From Chlorobiota bacterium (GTDB lineage: Bacteria; Bacteroidota; Ignavibacteria; OLB7): a DNA stretch of 64,000 nucleotides. Below, piece by piece: positions 30,618 through 41,061 of this stretch; the stretch's first letter is position 1; the number at the start of each line of letters is the position of its first letter. A program made the translations under genes and the position numbers. Location: NCBI GenBank assembly GCA_028287785.1, contig JAQBOZ010000028.1, forward strand, positions 248,001 to 312,000, read 5' to 3'. The notes beneath the pieces are model-generated. The model ran no database searches. It was given only the letters and a program-made list of their open reading frames with translations, and was not told the DNA's origin.

Positions 30618-30660
30618 GTGAAGGCCAACGCCGCGGATGGCGTTGTTCAACAGCCTGCTA
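30618..30660. repeat. Short CAACGCC/GGCGTTG-type repeat, copy 2
   Basis: This is the second copy of the block at 1423-1465. Here CAACGCC and GGCGTTG pair perfectly around GCGGAT, followed by TTCAACAGCCTG. It overlaps the last codon and stop of the downstream minus-strand gene, so it may form that gene's 3' end structure. Confidence 0.55.
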
Positions 30661-31344
30661 CAGGCTGAAACCAAGCATCAGCCGCAACCCAATCGTCAGC
30701 GATTTGAAATCGGTGGAGCCTCCCCCCACCGGTACCACATAGCCCGCGCTCACGCCGAGGCTGGCAATGGGGGAGGGCATGTAGGCCATCACAACCTGCG
30801 GTCGCAGAAGAAAATAGTTCTGATTACGGACCTCCTCCAGGATGGTCCCCGCCGCCGTCACGCTCAATTCCGGACGTCGCCGGATTGCCGTCAGCCCGCC
30901 ACCGCCAACCAGCACCGATGACTGAAGATAGAAATTACGCCCCTCGGACAGGCTGAACTCGTAGCCGAGAAGCACCCCCGCATAGCTGTAGGTGAACTGA
31001 TAGGTGGCGGGATTCGCGTTGTACAGATGGGCGCTTCCCCCGGCCCCTCCCACCATCAGACCGTTGAGCAGCAGCAGCCCCTCCTCACCGATCAGCACCG
31101 GCGTCCCCCCCAGATCGGGGGCCACTGCCGATGGGCCGAGGCTCATGTAGTCCACGGTCAGACCGATGTAGGCGCCGGCGCGACTGGTCCGTGGGGGAAC
31201 CCGCGGCGATGCGGAAGGCCCGTCCTGACGAAGATAGCCGAATCGACCGCTGCCGACGGAATCGCCGGAGCTCTGGGCCCGCAGGCCGACGTGAAGAGCT
31301 GAGAAAAGCAGCGTAACCAGCAGTGCGAGATGCGTTCTGTTCAT
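30658..31344 (-). CDS. Outer-membrane beta-barrel protein (paralogue of next gene)
   Basis: 228 aa from ATG 31344, with a signal peptide ('LALLVTLLFSALHVGLRAQ'). It shares with the 257-aa protein upstream the central pattern 'GLLLLNGLMVGGAGGSAHLYN...YQFTYSYAGVLLGYE' (there 'GFTLLNGLLIGGGWSGAHLYN...DQFSFDYGGVLLGYD') and the end 'LGVSAGYVVPVGGGSTDFKSLTIGLRLMLGF'. Both look like outer-membrane barrels with the last strand at the C-terminus. Only 40 bases separate the two genes. Their position right after the RiPP genes, on the same strand, leaves open a shared transcript. Function unknown. Confidence 0.7.
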   Translation of the reverse strand: MNRTHLALLVTLLFSALHVGLRAQSSGDSVGSGRFGYLRQDGPSASPRVPPRTSRAGAYIGLTVDYMSLGPSAVAPDLGGTPVLIGEEGLLLLNGLMVGGAGGSAHLYNANPATYQFTYSYAGVLLGYEFSLSEGRNFYLQSSVLVGGGGLTAIRRRPELSVTAAGTILEEVRNQNYFLLRPQVVMAYMPSPIASLGVSAGYVVPVGGGSTDFKSLTIGLRLMLGFSL

Positions 31345-31384
31345 GCGCGATAATGTTCCTGAATTCCGGCGGGGCCGATACCCA

Positions 31385-32158
31385 TCACTCGCCGATACCG
31401 AAAGCAACCCGTATGCCGTAGGTGAGGTTTCGCAGATCGGTGAGCGAGCTTCCGCCAAGCGGCAGAAGGTAGTCCACGCCGAGACGAAGATCGAAATACT
31501 GGATCGGCGATATCCCGATGCTGATGCCGGGGCGCAACGCATAGAAGCCCTCATGCCGAACCCGCTCCAGAATCTCGCGACCGGTGGAAAGCGTGAGCGC
31601 GCTATCCTTTCTGATCATCTCCAGCCCTCCTGATGCCACCATCACCGCCCCGCGCACGGAGAGCCCGAGTGGACGAAGACGGGCATCGTAGCCGAGAAGA
31701 ACCCCCCCGTAATCGAAGGAGAATTGATCGTAGGCCGCCGGTGGATTGTAGAGATGGGCGCCGGACCAGCCGCCGCCGATCAACAGCCCGTTGAGGAGGG
31801 TGAAGCCCTCGAAGCCGTAGAAGACAAGGCTTCCCCCCTTCAGCCGGGGATCCAGCGCCTCCAGCGACAACCCCGATCCGGCAACCAGCCCCGTCAGGTA
31901 GATAAGGCCGCTCCTCCCCTTGATAAACGGATCGGGCTCCTTGGCGAAGAACTCGACGGTATCGGTGCTGATGCCGCTGAGGAACGAGCTGTCCGCGCTG
32001 AATGCTCCGGTGGTATCCACGGTCATCGATGTGTCGCTCGGGAAGAGCGTATCCCCCCGGCGGGTTGTGTCGGTCTGGGCAGGGGCCGGCAGCGCGAGCA
32101 TCATGAGGAACAGAGCGATGGCGGGAACCATGCGGCGCGATATCCGAAGTAGATTCAT
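31385..32158 (-). CDS. Outer-membrane beta-barrel protein (paralogue of downstream gene)
   Basis: 257 aa with signal peptide 'IALFLMMLALPAPAQ'. A Thr/Asp/Ser-rich spacer (about 28-75, 'DTTRRGDTLFPSDTSM') precedes a barrel-like region with 'IYLTGLVAGSGLSLEALDPRLKGGSLVFYGFEGFTLLNGLLIGGGWSGAHLYNPP'. It ends 'DYLLPLGGSSLTDLRNLTYGIRVAFGIGE'. Homologous to the protein encoded 40 bases downstream. It starts 139 bases after the stop of the lasso B2 gene on the same strand; an export or immunity role for the RiPP locus is possible, but the sequence does not show it. Confidence 0.7.
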   Translation of the reverse strand: MNLLRISRRMVPAIALFLMMLALPAPAQTDTTRRGDTLFPSDTSMTVDTTGAFSADSSFLSGISTDTVEFFAKEPDPFIKGRSGLIYLTGLVAGSGLSLEALDPRLKGGSLVFYGFEGFTLLNGLLIGGGWSGAHLYNPPAAYDQFSFDYGGVLLGYDARLRPLGLSVRGAVMVASGGLEMIRKDSALTLSTGREILERVRHEGFYALRPGISIGISPIQYFDLRLGVDYLLPLGGSSLTDLRNLTYGIRVAFGIGE

Positions 32159-32297: not shown

Positions 32298-32729
32298 CTA
32301 TCGCGATCGTTCGTAATCGAAATGCGGAAGTGGCGTAAACTCCTCCCCATCCAGATCCCCGATCACCACGCGACCCTCGCACTCCACCCAGGCATGAGCC
32401 TGAAAGCCGCCATCGCGACCCTTTGCAACGCCCAGCCTCAGCATGGCCGGATAGCCGCTGCGGACAAGCAGGAACTGCGCCGCGAACGCCTGCGTCAGGC
32501 ATGTGGCGTTCGGCACATACCGGCTTGCGGCCGTCACAGCCCAGGCGATCCTCTCGGCCGCATGCCGCCTGGGGCTGATGCAGGCGGGAGGCCGCATCAG
32601 CCTGGCAAGGAGCTTCCGGAGCGTTCCGAACGGCAGAATGGTCAGCGCGGACCGCACTCCTCCCACCAGCAGGAGCGCGCCGAGCAGCAATCGCTGCTCG
32701 GCACCGGGAAGGCGAAGGAACCTACGCAC
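32298..32729 (-). CDS. Lasso peptide biosynthesis B2 protein (transglutaminase-like leader peptidase)
   Basis: 143 aa, full length for the family. The Cys-His-Asp triad of the Transglut_core3 fold is visible: Cys in 'VPNATCLTQAFAAQFLL', His in 'GGFQAHAWVECEG', Asp in 'VVIGDLDGEEF'. The family cleaves the leader from lasso-type precursors, two residues after the conserved leader Thr, guided by the B1 recognition protein. It overlaps the end of the B1 gene by 8 bases, so B1 and B2 are translationally coupled as in other split-B lasso clusters. A hydrophobic N-terminal stretch ('QRLLLGALLLVGGVRSAL') may contact the membrane. Confidence 0.88.
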   Translation of the reverse strand: MRRFLRLPGAEQRLLLGALLLVGGVRSALTILPFGTLRKLLARLMRPPACISPRRHAAERIAWAVTAASRYVPNATCLTQAFAAQFLLVRSGYPAMLRLGVAKGRDGGFQAHAWVECEGRVVIGDLDGEEFTPLPHFDYERSR

Positions 32730-33012
32730 CCTTTCCGTTGCTCACCTCGATGAGCCCTTTGGATTCCAACTGCTCCAGCAGCGCCGTCACATCCCGCTCG
32801 CACTCCCCGGCGTCAACGTCGAACTCCGCCATCACGCCACGGCAGATCGCGTCGAATCCGGTCGGCTGGCTCAGCATGTTCCAGATAAGCGCCCCCACCG
32901 GGTCCAGCCCGTAGTAGACGCCATCGGCCAGATTGAGAATGGCGGCCTCGCCCGCAAGGTCGCATGAAACCTGCTCGCGCGATGCCACGATGATCGATTG
33001 GCGAGATATCAT
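32722..33012 (-). CDS. PqqD-like RiPP recognition element, lasso B1 protein
   Basis: 96 aa from ATG 33012. The frame is open to 33207, but the extra N-terminus is not family-like, and the GAGGAGA before 33012 supports this start. The sequence follows the PqqD/B1 pattern: 'EQVSCDLAGEAAILNLADGVYYGLDPVGALIWNMLSQP', then 'CERDVTALLEQLESKGLIEV'. This winged-helix RRE domain binds the leader peptide and presents it to the B2 protease. It lies between the kinase gene (266-bp gap) and B2 (8-bp overlap). Its recognition sequence in the leader would be the 'YxxPxL...G' motif of the two precursors upstream. Confidence 0.88.
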   Translation of the reverse strand: MISRQSIIVASREQVSCDLAGEAAILNLADGVYYGLDPVGALIWNMLSQPTGFDAICRGVMAEFDVDAGECERDVTALLEQLESKGLIEVSNGKGA

Positions 33013-33278
33013 TCTCCTCGTCTCTCTTCGGGTTGATGGAATAGCCGTCGCCAATGTGACGGGCGCATGGCAACCGCTGAATAATTTCATCGGCTTCCGT
33101 GGCATCCCGGCATGCGCCGGCGGCCACGGAAACAGCGTTCCGCAAGATAGAGCACAACCGGCAAATCCCGATGCCCGCGCGGCCACGGTACGACAATTGG
33201 CACTCACGGTTACGCCGGATCGCCGGGATTGAAGGGATGAATGATGGGGATGAATCGTCGATGCTCAACGACGGGAGA

Positions 33279-34172
33279 TTATCGCGGCGGATCGCCGAGA
33301 TCCTGCTCGATGAGGTCAAGCAGAGCGGGAAGAGCGGTGATGGAGCGATGAACATGGAGGCGAAGCACCGGAACCCGCGCGGCCAGGCCGGCGCACTGCA
33401 TCATGTTTGCGGGGGCGGCCCCCATCCGTTCGAGGATCGGGGCGATATATGAATGGCGCATCAGCTCGATCATCCCGTCGCGCGGCGTCAACGGCTCGAT
33501 GGCGTTCGTTTCGCCGGTTGTGATCGCGTAGATTCTCAGCGGATGGAGCGGAGCCGAGGGAAAGTCTCCATGCAGTTCGAGCGCGCGCTTCTCAGCGTCG
33601 GGACGAAGGATCGGCATGACGAGCGGATCATATCCCAACCCTGCCGCGGCGTCGGGCCATAGCTTCAGAAGCGGAAAACCGGGGTCGATGGCGGGTGGTT
33701 CATGAGCGGGGTCGATCGACACAAGATCATCGGCAACCGCGGGGTATCCCCGACGGTGAAGCCCGGCGGCGATGGTCGATTTCCCCGCGCCGGATTCTCC
33801 CAGAAACGCTGCCACGCCGGATGCCGTGGCAACGGCGCTTCCATGCAGCACAAGCCTTCCGCGCTGCTGAAGCAGCAACCCCAGCACCGGCCCGAGGAGA
33901 TAGAGCCGGAGCACGCGCTCGTCGGCATCGCCGACCGGGTCGACGATCACCTCATTGCCACCGCGTATCAGAAATCTTCCAGCCCCTTCCCAGAGGAAAA
34001 GGGCCTCATCGGGCGTGGCGTGGAGGCAGCCATCCACCGACTCCGATGCAGAAAAAAAGGCGAGATCACCCGCCTTAACGACAACATCCGCTTCCCGGTC
34101 GAGGGTTCGAAGCTCGGGAAGCGGAATAAAAGAGCTGATTGAAAGACCGTGGGCGAGAAACGCGCCGGGCAT
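33279..34172 (-). CDS. HPr-kinase-like enzyme of the lasso RiPP cluster
   Basis: About 297 aa from ATG 34172, which overlaps the stop of precursor A1 (TGATG); TTG 34175 is an alternative. The P-loop 'FLGESGAGKSTIAAGL' (about 125-132) is preceded by 'RLVLHGSAVATASG' and followed by 'YPAVADDLVSID', the layout of HPr serine kinase/phosphorylase (HprK) catalytic domains. HprK homologues next to lasso genes (paeninodin and thermobacillin-type clusters) phosphorylate the precursor's C-terminal Ser. Here both precursors end in Gly, so the target must be another Ser or another partner. The N-terminal 100 residues lack the HprK regulatory domain, as in lasso-associated kinases. Confidence 0.82.
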   Translation of the reverse strand: MPGAFLAHGLSISSFIPLPELRTLDREADVVVKAGDLAFFSASESVDGCLHATPDEALFLWEGAGRFLIRGGNEVIVDPVGDADERVLRLYLLGPVLGLLLQQRGRLVLHGSAVATASGVAAFLGESGAGKSTIAAGLHRRGYPAVADDLVSIDPAHEPPAIDPGFPLLKLWPDAAAGLGYDPLVMPILRPDAEKRALELHGDFPSAPLHPLRIYAITTGETNAIEPLTPRDGMIELMRHSYIAPILERMGAAPANMMQCAGLAARVPVLRLHVHRSITALPALLDLIEQDLGDPPR

Positions 34173-34339
34173 CAACCGGCGAGATGCGATCCCATCGGGA
34201 AATCGACCGGGCCGCTGCCGACGTTTTTCGTGATGTCGGAAAGCGATCCCAAAACTTCGAGGTTGGGGGCAACGTACGGCTTCTTAGCCTGCGTCTCATC
34301 CACGTTACCGGTGGAATGCGACGGATTCTCGTTTGTCAT
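34172..34339 (-). CDS. Lasso-type RiPP precursor A1
   Basis: 55 aa from ATG 34339. The leader (about 38 aa) carries the lasso recognition motif 'KKPYVAPNLEVLGSLSDITK' (YxxPxL...G...T). With the conserved Thr at position -2, the predicted core is NVGSGPVDFPMGSHLAG (17 aa). Asp8 is the only acidic residue at ring position 7-9, giving a predicted 8-residue macrolactam Asn1-Asp8 with a 9-residue tail. Asn as residue 1 is uncommon among characterised lasso peptides, where Gly, Ala, Ser or Cys dominate. The stop overlaps the kinase start, so the kinase is coupled to this precursor. Core and ring are predictions; no mass data are available here. Confidence 0.82.
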   Translation of the reverse strand: MTNENPSHSTGNVDETQAKKPYVAPNLEVLGSLSDITKNVGSGPVDFPMGSHLAG

Positions 34340-35182
34340 GATAATGCCCTGCGTAAACTGATGATAGATCGGATATCTGAGGGATCGGAGCGCGCCGATC
34401 ACGCTTCGTGCTGGAATTGCGCTTCACATCAGGGGCGTATCGTGTCGGAGCAACGTCGTCTACATCGCCCCACAACTTCCCCAACCTGAACCGCGCAACA
34501 CGAAAAACAACACAATCCCAACCATGAGCGACGTTCCAGACGTCCCCACTGGGATTTCATTGCCTCCTGAACAGAGTTCAAGTTCGCTATTCTTCCCCAC
34601 ATGAACAACCCTTCATGAGAACTTTACGGCAGAGCCCGCACCGTCATCCCTCGGAACGGAGCTTCGGCAAGCCATCCTCCGCTGGTGGAGCCCGGTCGCG
34701 TGAGTTGAGTTCTCCGCGCCGGGCTCCGTGCCGAGAAACGGAGCCAAGCCGCATGGCATGGACGGGTCAGGGATGGAAGACCCGGTCACATACACATCAG
34801 AACCGTGCCCGGCCTGACTGCGGCACCAGCATCACACACTTCAACGGCGCATTTCTTCGAGGTTCCGCGACGGAAACTGCTTTGGAGAACATGAGGGGAT
34901 GGACGCCGGCCCCTTCTTGAAGAAGGCCCTTCCAGTGCCCATCGCCATGAAACTCCCAGCCCGCAGGCTGAAAACAGCTTCGTCATCGGCTCCACGGAAA
35001 CGCGCATCATCAGGGTTCGCGGAAAGAGCGCGGCCGGCGGATATCGCGTTCAGGAATTGATTACATCGGCACGCACCAGTTCCGGGGAACGCGCTGATAC
35101 ATCGCCCGCCAGTACAGGACGGGTTCCCGAACGTAGGGATGGGATCGATATCCGGAATCGACCGCGGGATGCGCGAAGGATA
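34340..35182 (-). other. 843-bp region between the two precursor genes, with competing hairpins
   Basis: No protein gene is supported. GGAGCCCGG (34687-34695) can pair with CCGGGCTCC (34719-34727), while the overlapping GCTCCGT (34723-34729) pairs perfectly with ACGGAGC at 34738-34744 and also with an earlier copy at 34656-34662. These pairings exclude each other, as in an attenuator or a structured leader RNA of the A1-kinase message. No known riboswitch was recognised. Confidence 0.4.
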
Positions 35183-35350
35183 TCAGCCCGCCAGATGCGA
35201 GCCCATCGGGAAGTCGACTGAGCCGCTTCCGATATTCTTCGTGATCTCCTTCAACGAACCGTGAATAGTCAGCTTGGGCGTGTGATACGGTTTCCGGGCC
35301 TGAGCACGATAGATGCTCTCCTCGGAATATGGCTGGTTCTCGCTGTTCAT
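35183..35350 (-). CDS. Lasso-type RiPP precursor A2
   Basis: 55 aa, the same length as A1. ATG 35350 is chosen because GGAGG lies 8 bases upstream; 35365 is also in frame. The leader carries 'ARKPYHTPKLTIHGSLKEITK' features (YxxPxL...G...T) and the predicted core is NIGSGSVDFPMGSHLAG, differing from A1 at 2 of 17 positions (V2I, P6S) by hand count, while the leaders share only 17 of 38. The core is therefore more strongly conserved than the leader. Predicted ring Asn1-Asp8. It is the first gene of the minus-strand RiPP block, 833 bases upstream of A1 and 430 bases after hemL. Confidence 0.82.
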   Translation of the reverse strand: MNSENQPYSEESIYRAQARKPYHTPKLTIHGSLKEITKNIGSGSVDFPMGSHLAG

Positions 35351-35779: not shown

Positions 35780-37135
35780 TTATCGGAAATTTTTCGGGGC
35801 GATCTCCCCGAACGATTCATCGACCGCCGCCAGCGTCCGCTCGATCTCCGCCTCCCCATGCGCCGTGGAGATGAAGAGCGCCTCGTACTGCGATGGCGGC
35901 AGATAGATCCCCCGACGGAGCATCGCGTGGAAGAACGCGGCGAAACGGGATGCGTCGCACATCATGGCGCCCGCGAAATCGTTCACCGGCCCTTCGGTGA
36001 AAAACGGGGTCAGCATGGAGCCCACCCGGTTGACGCGCAGCGGGATGCCGTGACGTTCCGCTGCCTCCGCCAGCCCCAGCGCGATACGCTCCGCGGTCCG
36101 CTCCAGCGCGGGATAGGGATCATCATTCATCAGTATCCCGAGCGTGGCAAGGCCGGCTGCCACCGCGAGCGGGTTCCCGGAAAGGGTGCCGGCCTGATAG
36201 ACCTTCCCCACCGGCGACACCATCTCCATGATCTCCCGGCGGCCGCCGTAGGCCGCCGCCGGAAGCCCGCCGCCGATGATCTTGCCAAGCGTGTACATGT
36301 CCGGGGTGATGCCGTAGAGCGATGCGGCCCCCCTCAGCGCCACCCGGAAGCCGGTCATCACCTCATCGAAGATCAGCACGGTTCCATGCTCCGTGCAGAG
36401 CCGGCGCAGTTCCGCGAGGAATCGCGGCGTGGAGGGGACCACCCCCATGTTGCCGCCGATCGGCTCGATGATCACCGCGGCAATCTCCCCCCCGTTCGAT
36501 TCAAACAGATCGCGGACGGAGGCGATATCGTTGAAGGTCGCGTTCAGCGTATCGCCGGCCGCGCCGCGCGTTACCCCCGGAGAGCTTGGCGCGCCGTGCG
36601 TCAGCATCCCGCTTCCCGCCTTGATCAGAAAGGAATCGCCGTGGCCGTGATAGCATCCCTCGAACTTGATGATCTTCTCCCGCCCGGTAAACCCGCGCGC
36701 AACCCGCACGGCGGACATCGTGGCCTCCGTGCCGCTGGATACCAGACGGACCATCTCCAGCCCCGCCAGCAGCCCCGTCAGCAGCTCCGCCATCTCCACC
36801 TCCAGCCTGGAAGGGGCGCCAAAGCTGGTGGCGCGGTCCGCCTGCCGGTGGATTGCATCGATCACCCGATGATCGCCATGCCCCAGAATGAACGGCCCCC
36901 ATGACCCCACATAATCGATATAGCTGTTCCCGTCGGCATCGGTCAGATACGCGCCGCGCGCCTCCTCGAAGAAGACCGGCGTGCCGCCAACCCCGCCGAA
37001 ACCACGCACGGGGGAGTTCACGCCTCCGGGAATGGCCCGTCGCGCGCGCGCAAACAGCGCATCGCTTTCCGTCCGCATTCCGCTATTATCGGTCATGGGA
37101 TCGTTCTGATTGCCGGTTCCTGATGATGGCGTCAT
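35780..37135 (-). CDS. hemL: Glutamate-1-semialdehyde 2,1-aminomutase
   Basis: 451 aa, PLP-dependent class III aminotransferase fold. It converts glutamate-1-semialdehyde to 5-aminolevulinate, the last step of C5 tetrapyrrole entry. Hallmarks: '[51 protein letters not shown]' at the N-terminus, '[19 protein letters not shown]', '[20 protein letters not shown]', '[11 protein letters not shown]' and the PLP Lys in '[18 protein letters not shown]'. The start at 37135 overlaps the hemB stop by 4 bases (ATGA), so the two are coupled. HemL shows that this organism makes ALA by the C5 (glutamyl-tRNA) route; the partner hemA is not in the window. Confidence 0.96.
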
Positions 37136-38136
37136 TTCCGCATCCCCTGGGCAAGCCGTTTGGCGAAATAGGTGACGATGATCGATGCCCCCGCCCGCCG
37201 GATGCAGAGGAGCGATTCCTTCATGGCGCCGTCCAGATCCAGCCAGCCGTTCCGCGCCGCGGCGTGGATCATGGCGTATTCGCCGGAGACCTGGTAGGCG
37301 GCAATCGGGACGTCGGTGGTATCGTACAGCGTCTTGATCACGTCCAGATAGGGGAGCGCCGGCTTGACCATGATGATGTCGGCCCCCTCCGCCAGATCGA
37401 GCCGTGCCTCGCGGAGCGCTTCCCGGAAGTTGGCGGGGTCCATCTGGTGCGAACGCCGGTCGCCGAAGCTCGGCGTGGAACCGGCTGCTTCGCGGAACGG
37501 GCCGTAGAAACTGCTTGCGTACTTGACGGCGTAGGAGATGATCGGGATGTCGTGATATCCCGCCGCGTCCAGCCCGCGCCGGATGGCGCCGATACGGCCG
37601 TCCATCATGTCGGACGGGGCGATGATATCGGCGCCGGCATCGGCGTGGGAGATCGCCGCGCGGACGAGAAGATCCACTGTGGGATCGTTCAGGATATGCT
37701 CGCCATCCAGCAGGCCGCAGTGGCCGTGGTCGGTATACTCGCAGAGGCAGACATCGGTCACCACCGTCATCCCGGGCACGGCCGCCTTGATCGCCCGGAT
37801 CGCCCGCTGCACAATGCCGTCATCGGCATACGCGCCGGTCCCCTCGGCATCCTTCGATTCCGGGATGCCGAAGAGGATCACGCTCTTCACGCCAAGCCCC
37901 AGCAGCTCGCGACTCTCCTCCACAATCTGATCCACCGAAAGCTGATAGACCTCCGGCATCGATCCCACCTCGGCGCGGATGCCGGTGCCGGGGCAGACGA
38001 AGAGCGGCTGGATAAGGCCGTCAAGTTCCAGCCGGGTTTCGCGGACCATCCCGCGGATGGCTGCTGTCCGCCGAAGCCGGCGGGGACGATTTGTGAGATG
38101 ACCGGCAGTGCCGATCGATGCGGTTGTATCGTTCAT
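37132..38136 (-). CDS. hemB: Porphobilinogen synthase (5-aminolevulinate dehydratase)
   Basis: 334 aa. It condenses two 5-aminolevulinate molecules to porphobilinogen. Family landmarks: '[20 protein letters not shown]', '[10 protein letters not shown]', the metal-site Cys cluster '[17 protein letters not shown]', the first Schiff-base Lys in '[21 protein letters not shown]' and the second in '[14 protein letters not shown]'. Three Cys in the '[14 protein letters not shown]' motif indicate the zinc-dependent form. It is third in the heme operon, 83 bases downstream of hemG and overlapping hemL by 4 bases. Confidence 0.96.
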
Positions 38137-38219
38137 GGTTTGAGCAGTAGCGGAATGGCTGAAAGGGAGCCCATCGGGGAGCGCCGGGGAGAAATCGGCC
38201 GCGGGGGATCGGCGCCGGA

Positions 38220-39650
38220 TCAGCTCTCCTCGTAGAGATCATCAGGAGCCTGAGCGTCCGTGGCGACCGCGACCCGCGCGCCGCTGCGGCGGAGAAGCCG
38301 ATCGGCAAGCGCGCGACCGGATTTCACGCAGTCCCCCACCGACACGCCCCCCCTGTAATTGCCGAGCAGATGCATTCCCGGAAGGCGCTCCTCCGCCAGC
38401 TCGATCGCCTCGATGATGGCGCCATGCCCCAGGTTGTACTGCGGTATCGCCCGGTTCCAGACGCGCAGATCGAACGATTTCGGGCGGGCGCAGATGCCCA
38501 GCGTCCGCCGAAGCTCCGCGTGAACATCGTACGCGATCTCCTCGGACGAACGGAGCGCCAGCGCCGGCTCCCGCGCGCCACCCATGAACGCCGTCAGCAG
38601 CACGGTTCCCTCCGGGGCGCGATTCGGAAAAAGCGTGGATGAGAAGATGGTCCCGAGGATGCAGCGCCGCTCCACCTCCGGCACCAGCATGCCGAAGCCA
38701 TCCAGCGGATGAGTGACCATGGAACGATCGTACAGAACCGAGGCAACCGCGAGCGCCGGATATTCTATCGACCTGAGCGCGGCGGCGGCGGCCGTCTCAT
38801 GCTCGGCGATCAGCCCGGCGGCCGTCGCCGCGTCGGTGGCGATCACCAGGTTCGGCGCCACGAAGCGCTCGCCACGAGCCACCACGTGCCAGCTCCCCCC
38901 GATCCTGTCGATCCGCTCCACATCGACGCCGGTGTGGATGCACTCCCCCCAGCGTTCCTGAATTCTTCCGGGCAACTCCCCCATCCCCTCGATAAAGGAG
39001 AAGAGCCCCTTGCGCTCCGGTGCCTCCCCGCGCGCGCGCGCCTTCCTGCCGGCGCGCATCCGCTTCAACCCGCCACGGAGAAGGCTTCCGGCCTCCCGCT
39101 CCAGATCGTGAAGCATCGGCATGGCATGGCGGACGGAGAGGCGTTCGGGGCGGCCGGCGTAGACGCCGGAGATAAACGGGTTGATGGCGTAATCGAGCAT
39201 TTCGCGACCCAGCCGCCGCTCGACAAACTGGGCGATGCTCTCCTCCGCCTCACCGACGGCGGCGCGGATAAAGGGCTCGCGCAGCAGCCGTCGCTTGGCC
39301 GCGCCGGAGAAGAGTCGCGAGCGGAAGAACGCCTTCGGGCCGGTCGGCACCGGCATCAGGCGGCCGTCGCGGAGGATATAGCGGTTGGCCGCCTCGGCGG
39401 CGGGATGCACCAGACGATCCCCGAGATCGAGATCGTCGATCAGCTCCGAGAGGAGCGGCGTATTGAACTGGGCGCTGTTCGGCCCGGATTCCACCAGCGC
39501 GCCAAGCTCGTTTCTATGCGAGCCCATGACGCCCCCCACGGCCTCCCCCCGTTCGAAGAGAACCACATCGGCGCCCCCCTTTGCCAGCCAGTGGAGCGCG
39601 GAGGCGCCGGAGATTCCGCCGCCGATAATGATCACATCGAGATTACGCAT
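38220..39650 (-). CDS. hemG: FAD-dependent protoporphyrinogen/coproporphyrinogen oxidase
   Basis: 476 aa from ATG 39650; the frame is open to 39692. N-terminal FAD motif '[37 protein letters not shown]' (GxGxxG plus the Glu that binds ribose), then '[19 protein letters not shown]', typical of the HemY-type oxygen-dependent oxidase (the gene is called hemG in HemY-type operons and hemY in others). '[26 protein letters not shown]' is the C-terminal FAD-binding motif. It oxidises protoporphyrinogen IX to protoporphyrin IX, or coproporphyrinogen III in the coproporphyrin branch; sequence alone does not decide. Overlaps hemH by 8 bases, so ferrochelatase is coupled to it. Confidence 0.9.
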
Positions 39651-40692
39651 CGGCTTTCTCCCTCCCCGGCCCGTTCTCCAGCGGAAGCTCATCGCGATAG
39701 CGGGCCTCCACCAGATCGGCGAGCGCGGCTATGAATGTTGGCGTATCGTTCAGCGCGTACATCACTTCATATTTATGAATCCCCGCCTTCTCCGCGACCT
39801 CCCGCAGCTCCATCCCCAGCTCGTGCAGGGTTTCGATATGGTCGGTGACAAAGGCGATCGGGACGATCAGCAGGCTCTTCACCCCTTCGGCGCCAAGCCG
39901 CGCCAGGGCATCCTGCGTGTAGGGCTCCAGCCATTTCACCGGCCCCACCCGGCTCTGGAACGAGAGATGGTGGGGATAATCCCCTCCGCGCAGCGCCATC
40001 ACCGCATCGACAGTCGCGGCGATCTGTTTCGAGTAGGGATCGCCGGCCTGCACATCGGAGATCGGGGTGCCGTGGGCGGAGAAGAGAAAATGCAGATCCC
40101 GCCGCTCCTCCCCGGTAAACCGCTCGCGCAGCGTCGCCTCGATCCGGTCGTTGATGGCGGAGATATAGCGCGGATGGAGATGATAATCCTTGACCGATTT
40201 CACGCGGAAGCCGCGGCCGTAGCGGGTGCGATGGAGATCGCGCCACTCCTTGAAGCTGGAGCCGGTGGTGGTGCGGGAGTACTGCGGATAGAGGGGCATC
40301 AGAAAGATCTCCCTGATCCCCTTCCCCTTCAACTCGTCGGCCGCCTCGGTGGTAAACGGATGCCAGTAGCGCATGCCAAGCCTGACGTGAAACCTGGCGG
40401 CCCCGGCAAAGCGCCTGTTCAGCTCCGCCTCCAACGCCGCCCCCTGCTCCCGCGTCCGCTCCACCAGCGGCGATTTCCCGCCGATCGCCGCGTAGTTCGG
40501 TATCACCTTCGGCGTCCGCCGCCGCGCCACGAACTCCGCGAAGAGACGACGCGGAAAAAGCCGGCCAAGCAGCCCCGGCAGGGGGATCTTGATGATCTCG
40601 GGGTCGAGAAACAGATTGGTCAGGAACGGGCGGATCGCATCGAGCGATGTAGGCCCACCAAGATTATAGAGGATCACCCCAACCTGCTTCAT
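39643..40692 (-). CDS. hemH: Ferrochelatase
   Basis: 349 aa from ATG 40692. It inserts ferrous iron into the porphyrin (protoheme or coproheme ferrochelatase). Landmarks: 'MKQVGVILYNLGGPTSLDAIRPFLTNLFLDPEIIKIPLPG', 'MRYWHPFTTEAADELKGKGIREIFLMPLYPQYSRTTTGSSF', the catalytic His in 'LHFLFSAHGTPISDVQAGDPY', and 'LSFQSRVGPVKWLEPYTQDALARLGAEG' with the conserved Glu in 'FVTDHIETLHELGMELREVAE'. It opens the minus-strand heme operon hemH-hemG-hemB-hemL; about 370 bases without a gene precede it, where the promoter should lie. Confidence 0.95.
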   Translation of the reverse strand: MKQVGVILYNLGGPTSLDAIRPFLTNLFLDPEIIKIPLPGLLGRLFPRRLFAEFVARRRTPKVIPNYAAIGGKSPLVERTREQGAALEAELNRRFAGAARFHVRLGMRYWHPFTTEAADELKGKGIREIFLMPLYPQYSRTTTGSSFKEWRDLHRTRYGRGFRVKSVKDYHLHPRYISAINDRIEATLRERFTGEERRDLHFLFSAHGTPISDVQAGDPYSKQIAATVDAVMALRGGDYPHHLSFQSRVGPVKWLEPYTQDALARLGAEGVKSLLIVPIAFVTDHIETLHELGMELREVAEKAGIHKYEVMYALNDTPTFIAALADLVEARYRDELPLENGPGREKADA

Positions 40693-41061
40693 ACGATTTC
40701 TTCGAATGTCGATGCCGGAACCATCCCCCGAGCCACGGGGGAGCACGATGGGGCATCGGATGGATCGAACGTCATGGAAAAATAATCATGGAGAGAGCTT
40801 CCCCCCGTCTCAATTCGTCAAGAGCGGGCCTCGGAGAGGAACGATTTGGAAGCACCTTCCTCCCGGTGAGATGCTCCGGGGAGAACTACCGATGGGATCG
40901 GCCCGGCGGGCATCCTCAATAATAGAGAATTCCTTCGTCCCGGCGAGGAGCGGAGCGCGGGTCCGCGGATCAGGTTAACTTGTCGCGACCGGGCGCCTGG
41001 ACGGTTTCGCCGGGGCGATGTTGCCAGGGGCGCGCGGATTTCGATCAACAATATCGATGGG
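40693..41061. other. 369-bp divergent intergenic region
   Basis: It separates the heme operon (minus) from the acyltransferase genes (plus) and should carry both promoters. No repeat copy or gene is visible. Confidence 0.4.

Follow-up and report, generated by a model that had tools for sequence, protein, structure and literature searches.

Whether a lasso-type peptide can be made from a locus that carries no gene for a lasso cyclase is the question raised by positions 32298 to 35350 of the window, by which we mean the whole 64-kb stretch of DNA that was analysed. A sequence-only reading of this stretch had described two precursors, an HprK-like kinase, a B1 and a B2 protein, all on one strand. 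Each of these parts was indeed present, and on the minus strand, read from 35350 to 32298, they follow one another in this order:

35183..35350, minus strand: precursor A2, MNSENQ...KPYHTPKLTIHGSLKEITK, with the predicted core NIGSGSVDFPMGSHLAG after the putative cut site
34172..34339, minus strand: precursor A1, MTNENP...KPYVAPNLEVLGSLSDITK, with the predicted core NVGSGPVDFPMGSHLAG after the putative cut site
33279..34172, minus strand: HprK-like kinase, recognised by Hpr_kinase_C and by its kinship to kinases of lasso clusters
32722..33012, minus strand: B1, PqqD-like leader-binding protein of 96 amino acids counted from the ATG, recognised by Pfam PqqD
32298..32729, minus strand: B2, transglutaminase-fold leader peptidase, recognised by NF033537, Transglut_core3 and alignment

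The start of the kinase gene overlaps the stop codon of A1 (TGATG), an arrangement of translational coupling, and B1 and B2 overlap by 8 bp, so that packing is close at these junctions. Wider gaps lie between A2 and A1 (about 840 bp) and between the kinase gene and B1 (about 270 bp). Directly upstream of the precursors, on the same strand, the window contains the haem genes hemL, hemB, hemG and hemH (35780-40746, named by ORF reading). Downstream of B2 there are two tandem outer-membrane-type proteins homologous to each other (30658-32158), which were not counted as parts of the system because family members without B2 carry homologues of them.

The two precursors, the only ones counted in this genome, are 58% identical to each other. 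By motif scan both of them matched the lasso leader motif that had been read in them, YxxPxL together with Thr at position -2, and so did a precursor (core NVGNGFVDFPNGSSIAG) of the congeneric genome G001, which is 56% identical to A1 and is encoded about 8 kb away from B1 and B2. The presence of B1, B2 and this precursor on one contig of the congener indicates that the locus is not a product of chance. Scores with curated precursor models lay near or under the cut-offs: with NF033521, a model of the lasso leader, A2 just reached the required 19 bits (19.6 bits) and A1 stayed under them (14.9 bits), and against NF033528 (lasso_cyano) A2 scored 31.8 bits, under the cut-off of 33, with a sub-threshold match for A1 as well. 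If B2 cuts after Thr-Lys/Arg, the cores of A1, A2 and the congener all have an Asp at position 8, within the range of positions 7 to 9 where an Asp or Glu is looked for in a lasso core. The three cores end in Ala-Gly and so offer no C-terminal Ser as a phosphorylation site; Ser12 is the only Ser common to all of them. Other precursors of the same cyclase clade would also begin with a residue other than Gly if they are cut at the equivalent place.

In B2, the intact Cys-His-Asp triad that had been proposed was recovered by alignment (Cys in NATCLTQA, His in FQAHAW, Asp in VVIGDLDG). The protein scored 117 bits with NF033537 (lasso_biosyn_B2, cut-off 33) and 92.8 bits with Transglut_core3, and its gene is the only B2 gene of the whole genome. 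B1 was likewise verified as PqqD-like (Pfam PqqD, 68 bits, cut-off 23.4), and it scored under the cut-off of NF033536 lasso_PqqD_Bac (65.9 bits, cut-off 80). The assignment of the kinase as HprK-like stood as well, by a match to Hpr_kinase_C that lies under the Pfam cut-off (E=4e-5) together with its kinship to kinases of lasso clusters, the nearest relative in the tree set being the kinase of a cyanobacterial (Scytonema) lasso cluster with 39% identity. Its Walker A motif GESGAGKST is intact. The window thus combines a precursor with an HprK-like kinase, as paeninodin-like systems do. At the locus of the congener, no kinase was found, which suggests that phosphorylation may not be essential, and the kinase's target is uncertain given that the cores end in Ala-Gly. 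The two species also share a second HprK-like kinase, as orthologues that lie beside MoxR/VWA-type genes (G000:C3:696-1538, L056, in this genome and G001:C29:73589-74452, L057, in the congener); it was not assigned to the system, as there was no precursor in reach and it formed its own branch in the tree.

A C gene in the same gene cluster is usual for lasso systems, with no strict requirement for it. ORF and profile checks agreed with the earlier observation that neither a cyclase nor an ABC exporter is encoded in the window: no PF00733 protein was found on the contig to which it belongs, and the pair of ABC Walker A and signature motifs occurred in no ORF of the 64 kb. A genome-wide search for AsnB-like cyclases, as the sequence-only reading had recommended, covered the full assembly (4.75 Mb in 37 contigs, 95% complete, contamination 0.18%) and revealed an intact lasso cyclase of 637 amino acids on another contig (C1:208887-210800). 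This protein scored 756.5 bits with NF033535, the NCBI model of lasso isopeptide cyclases (cut-off 525), keeps the ATP motif SGGLDSS and has Ser in place of the glutaminase catalytic Cys2 (MSGIV). It is the only lasso cyclase among the three full-length asparagine-synthase-type (PF00733) proteins of the genome. The other two, both encoded on contig C14, were rejected: L001 is a Cys2-bearing (MCGIAG) protein of the AsnB/XrtA type with 269 bits against the cut-off of 525, and the second reached about 200 bits.

Downstream of C there are four tRNA genes followed by nusG, rplK, rplA and rpoB (names by ORF reading), and neither a precursor, a leader motif nor a B gene was found near it, precursors having been sought in both species. 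Judged by contig ends, the distance between C and the B locus is about 238 kb or more, of which C1 contributes 38 kb and C2 200 kb. Since the genome has a single B2 and a single lasso C, and since C has no precursor or B gene nearby, the only available partner of each half is the other half. The description of a system without a cyclase gene holds for the locus and not for the organism, and of the explanations offered earlier it is that of a cyclase encoded elsewhere that was supported, by a C protein above the curated cut-off in both this genome and its congener. The earlier reading had also named, as grounds for giving it up, a product mass showing an ordinary lasso peptide made by a distant C gene; such a gene has now been found at the level of sequence, and not by product mass.

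The distribution of these genes was surveyed in 61 genomes, comprising this one and its relatives from genus to class. B2 was detected in two of them, this genome and G001, its one sampled congener, and an NF033535 cyclase above the cut-off was present in the same two only. The outer-membrane-type and lipoprotein genes that come after B1 and B2 in the window do so in G001 as well, and upstream of C both species have the same lipoprotein gene and the same secreted gene, the latter presumably DUF4331-like. Motifs are kept between the two species at 46-48% identity and all frames are open. The C proteins of both genomes are sisters with 99% SH-aLRT support, as are their B1 and B2 proteins with 81%. 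Because the two genomes belong to one genus, this co-occurrence may go back to a single event. What remains new in the observation is a lasso gene set that is split over two conserved chromosomal places.

The closest relatives of the cyclase are encoded in compact clusters. The comparison set consisted of 80 cyclases retained from GTDB genomes as the nearest, with cyanobacteria, Mesorhizobium and a few other groups as sources. B1 and B2 were located within 10 kb in 77 of these loci and an HprK-like kinase in 79; the cyclase locus of this set that lacks B1, B2 and kinase is that of G001 itself. In many of these loci an ABC exporter is encoded beside the kinase. The simplest history would be that a compact cluster came apart in this genus. 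A full lasso locus of the type B1-B2-C-A-K with an exporter-like gene was also seen in two contigs labelled as Euryarchaeota MAGs (L095 and L097), by transfer or misbinning. As for an exporter in the present genome, none was found at either locus, nor did a search with the ABC protein of a relative disclose a dedicated one elsewhere in the genome. The best match reached 326 bits here compared with 315-322 bits in lasso-free family members, and an exporter was not assigned because this match is no better than theirs.

Taken together, these data make it highly probable that the genes form a kinase-type, paeninodin-like lasso system, with precursors, kinase, B1 and B2 in the window and the cyclase at a second place of the chromosome, where the distant C would act on the A1 and A2 precursors. 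In the proposed pathway, B1 would bind and present the YxxPxL leader, the kinase would probably phosphorylate the precursor at a Ser ahead of ring closure, and B2 would cut after Thr(-2)-Lys(-1). The remote C would then activate Asp8 with ATP and join it to the amine of Asn1, and the predicted result is an 8-residue ring (Asn1-Asp8) with a 9-residue tail, FPMGSHLAG. The calculated neutral masses would be 1640.76 (linear), 1622.75 (lasso) and 1702.72 (phospho-lasso) for the A1 core, and 1644.76, 1626.75 and 1706.71 for that of A2. It counts against the lasso reading that the exporter was not found, that the kinase has no counterpart at the locus of the congener, that the cores end in Ala-Gly, and that the co-occurrence of B2 and C comes from a single genus.

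The best surviving alternative, to which we give a small chance, is that the B1, B2 and kinase of this genus yield a linear, cleaved and phosphorylated peptide, and that the distant cyclase is unrelated to it and serves some other or occasional purpose. The product would then be a B2-using counterpart of the linear polyphosphorylated peptides (LPPs) of Bacillota, whose biosynthesis uses an RRE, an HprK-like kinase and a peptidase and involves no cyclase (PMC13381572). This precedent keeps the alternative alive at low weight, and it is also favoured by two genomes of the same phylum that have a precursor, kinase, B1 and B2 without a convincing lasso cyclase. However, LPPs are defined by an SpI-like peptidase, a WxxP leader and the lack of a lasso cyclase, whereas B2, a YxxP leader and a genomic cyclase were found here. 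The linear peptide is disfavoured because a dedicated lasso cyclase co-occurs with B2 and because Asp8 is kept in the three precursors.

We regard it as improbable, and somewhat more so than a linear phosphopeptide, that these genes are the decaying remains of a cluster which has broken up and has ceased to make a product. The dispersal of the cluster, the exporter that was not found and, in the congener, the position of the kinase away from the precursor would all suit such a state, but the frames are open, the motifs have survived between the species at 46-48% identity, and the cores are conserved. It is very unlikely that the ring is closed by a ligase unrelated to C, such as an ATP-grasp enzyme: the idea arose solely from the lack of a C gene in the locus, no such ligase was found among the ORFs read around it, and the genome has a true lasso cyclase. 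This earlier proposal gained no support. That C truly lies beside the locus and was displaced by assembly or binning is barely credible. Both genomes are multi-contig drafts, and in G001 about 120 bp lie between C and the end of its contig. Against this, the B locus is far inside a contig of 484 kb, C lies 38 kb from the end of one of 249 kb, contamination is at 0.18%, and G001 has the two halves apart as well, each with the flanking genes seen here, so that one and the same error would have had to arise twice with identical neighbours.

In the phylum at large, 395 sampled genomes were also screened for B2 genes. They were present in 35 other genomes, in 19 of which a PF00733 gene lies within 10 kb by coordinate comparison and in 16 of which it does not. 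Fourteen regions in which B2 has no such neighbour were read; in most of them a motif scan gave no recognisable lasso precursor, and these may be other systems. B1-B2-kinase loci without C, with lasso-like precursors and an NTP-transferase-like gene (ORF reading), were found in two genomes of family f45:

3901-6973 of L177 (genome G175): lasso-like precursor ..GDVESLTQAEYGGLDAATHGLLFAMASP..
7700-11225 of L179 (genome G221): lasso-like precursor ..GNLDQLTKAEYGGLDQLLFGSLFAMASP..

No cyclase was found within 8 kb of either locus, and the genome-wide PF00733 matches were limited to one of 22.6 bits in G175 and to an AsnB-like one in G221. These two look truly cyclase-less and would be better candidates for such a system than the window. 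In four genomes of genus g86 (G063, G099, G105 and G195; L168-L171) genes resembling B2 and B1 occur away from any PF00733 gene, and no lasso leader motif was recognised around them; they possibly belong to a different peptide system.

In genome-mining surveys, a lasso locus is scored as incomplete if the cyclase is not adjacent. Conservation of the split in two species means that, counted over the whole genome, a locus of this kind can lack nothing, and that C is not bound to move together with A and B. The split also gives a natural setting in which to test the precursor specificity of a lasso cyclase encoded in trans. The strangest readings of the cyclase-free locus are not needed. In the open-access literature on split, dispersed or kinase-type clusters, no report was found of a lasso cyclase gene that lies away from the rest of its cluster.

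Compared with known systems, the genes described here are closest to the kinase-type clusters of cyanobacteria and Mesorhizobium (precursor model NF033528, lasso_cyano), with which they share the cyclase clade (NF033535), B1, B2, an HprK-like kinase and the YxxPxL...G...T leader; those clusters are compact and often include an ABC exporter, whereas here C is remote and the exporter was not found. Paeninodin and pseudomycoidin likewise have a split B1/B2 and an HprK-like kinase, which in those systems acts on a precursor. PadeK of the paeninodin cluster (PadeA-K-B1-B2-C) phosphorylates the linear precursor at its C-terminal Ser, and the kinase target is a C-terminal Ser in both of these systems, in contrast to the Ala-Gly ends of the present cores. 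The LPPs resemble the locus in having an RRE and an HprK-like kinase with the cyclase absent from the locus, and differ from its B2 and YxxP leader by their SpI-like peptidase, their WxxP leader and the NTP transferase and exporter of their cluster (PMC13381572). Asn as the first ring residue is odd at first sight, yet it has a precedent in metanodin, a lasso peptide whose Asn1 has mass-spectrometric support and which also has Thr at -2 (PMC12670498). Metanodin is gammaproteobacterial and was obtained from soil DNA by expression of a refactored cluster, and its paper mentions no kinase (PMC12670498); if the product predicted here is confirmed, it will be another lasso peptide closed on Asn1.
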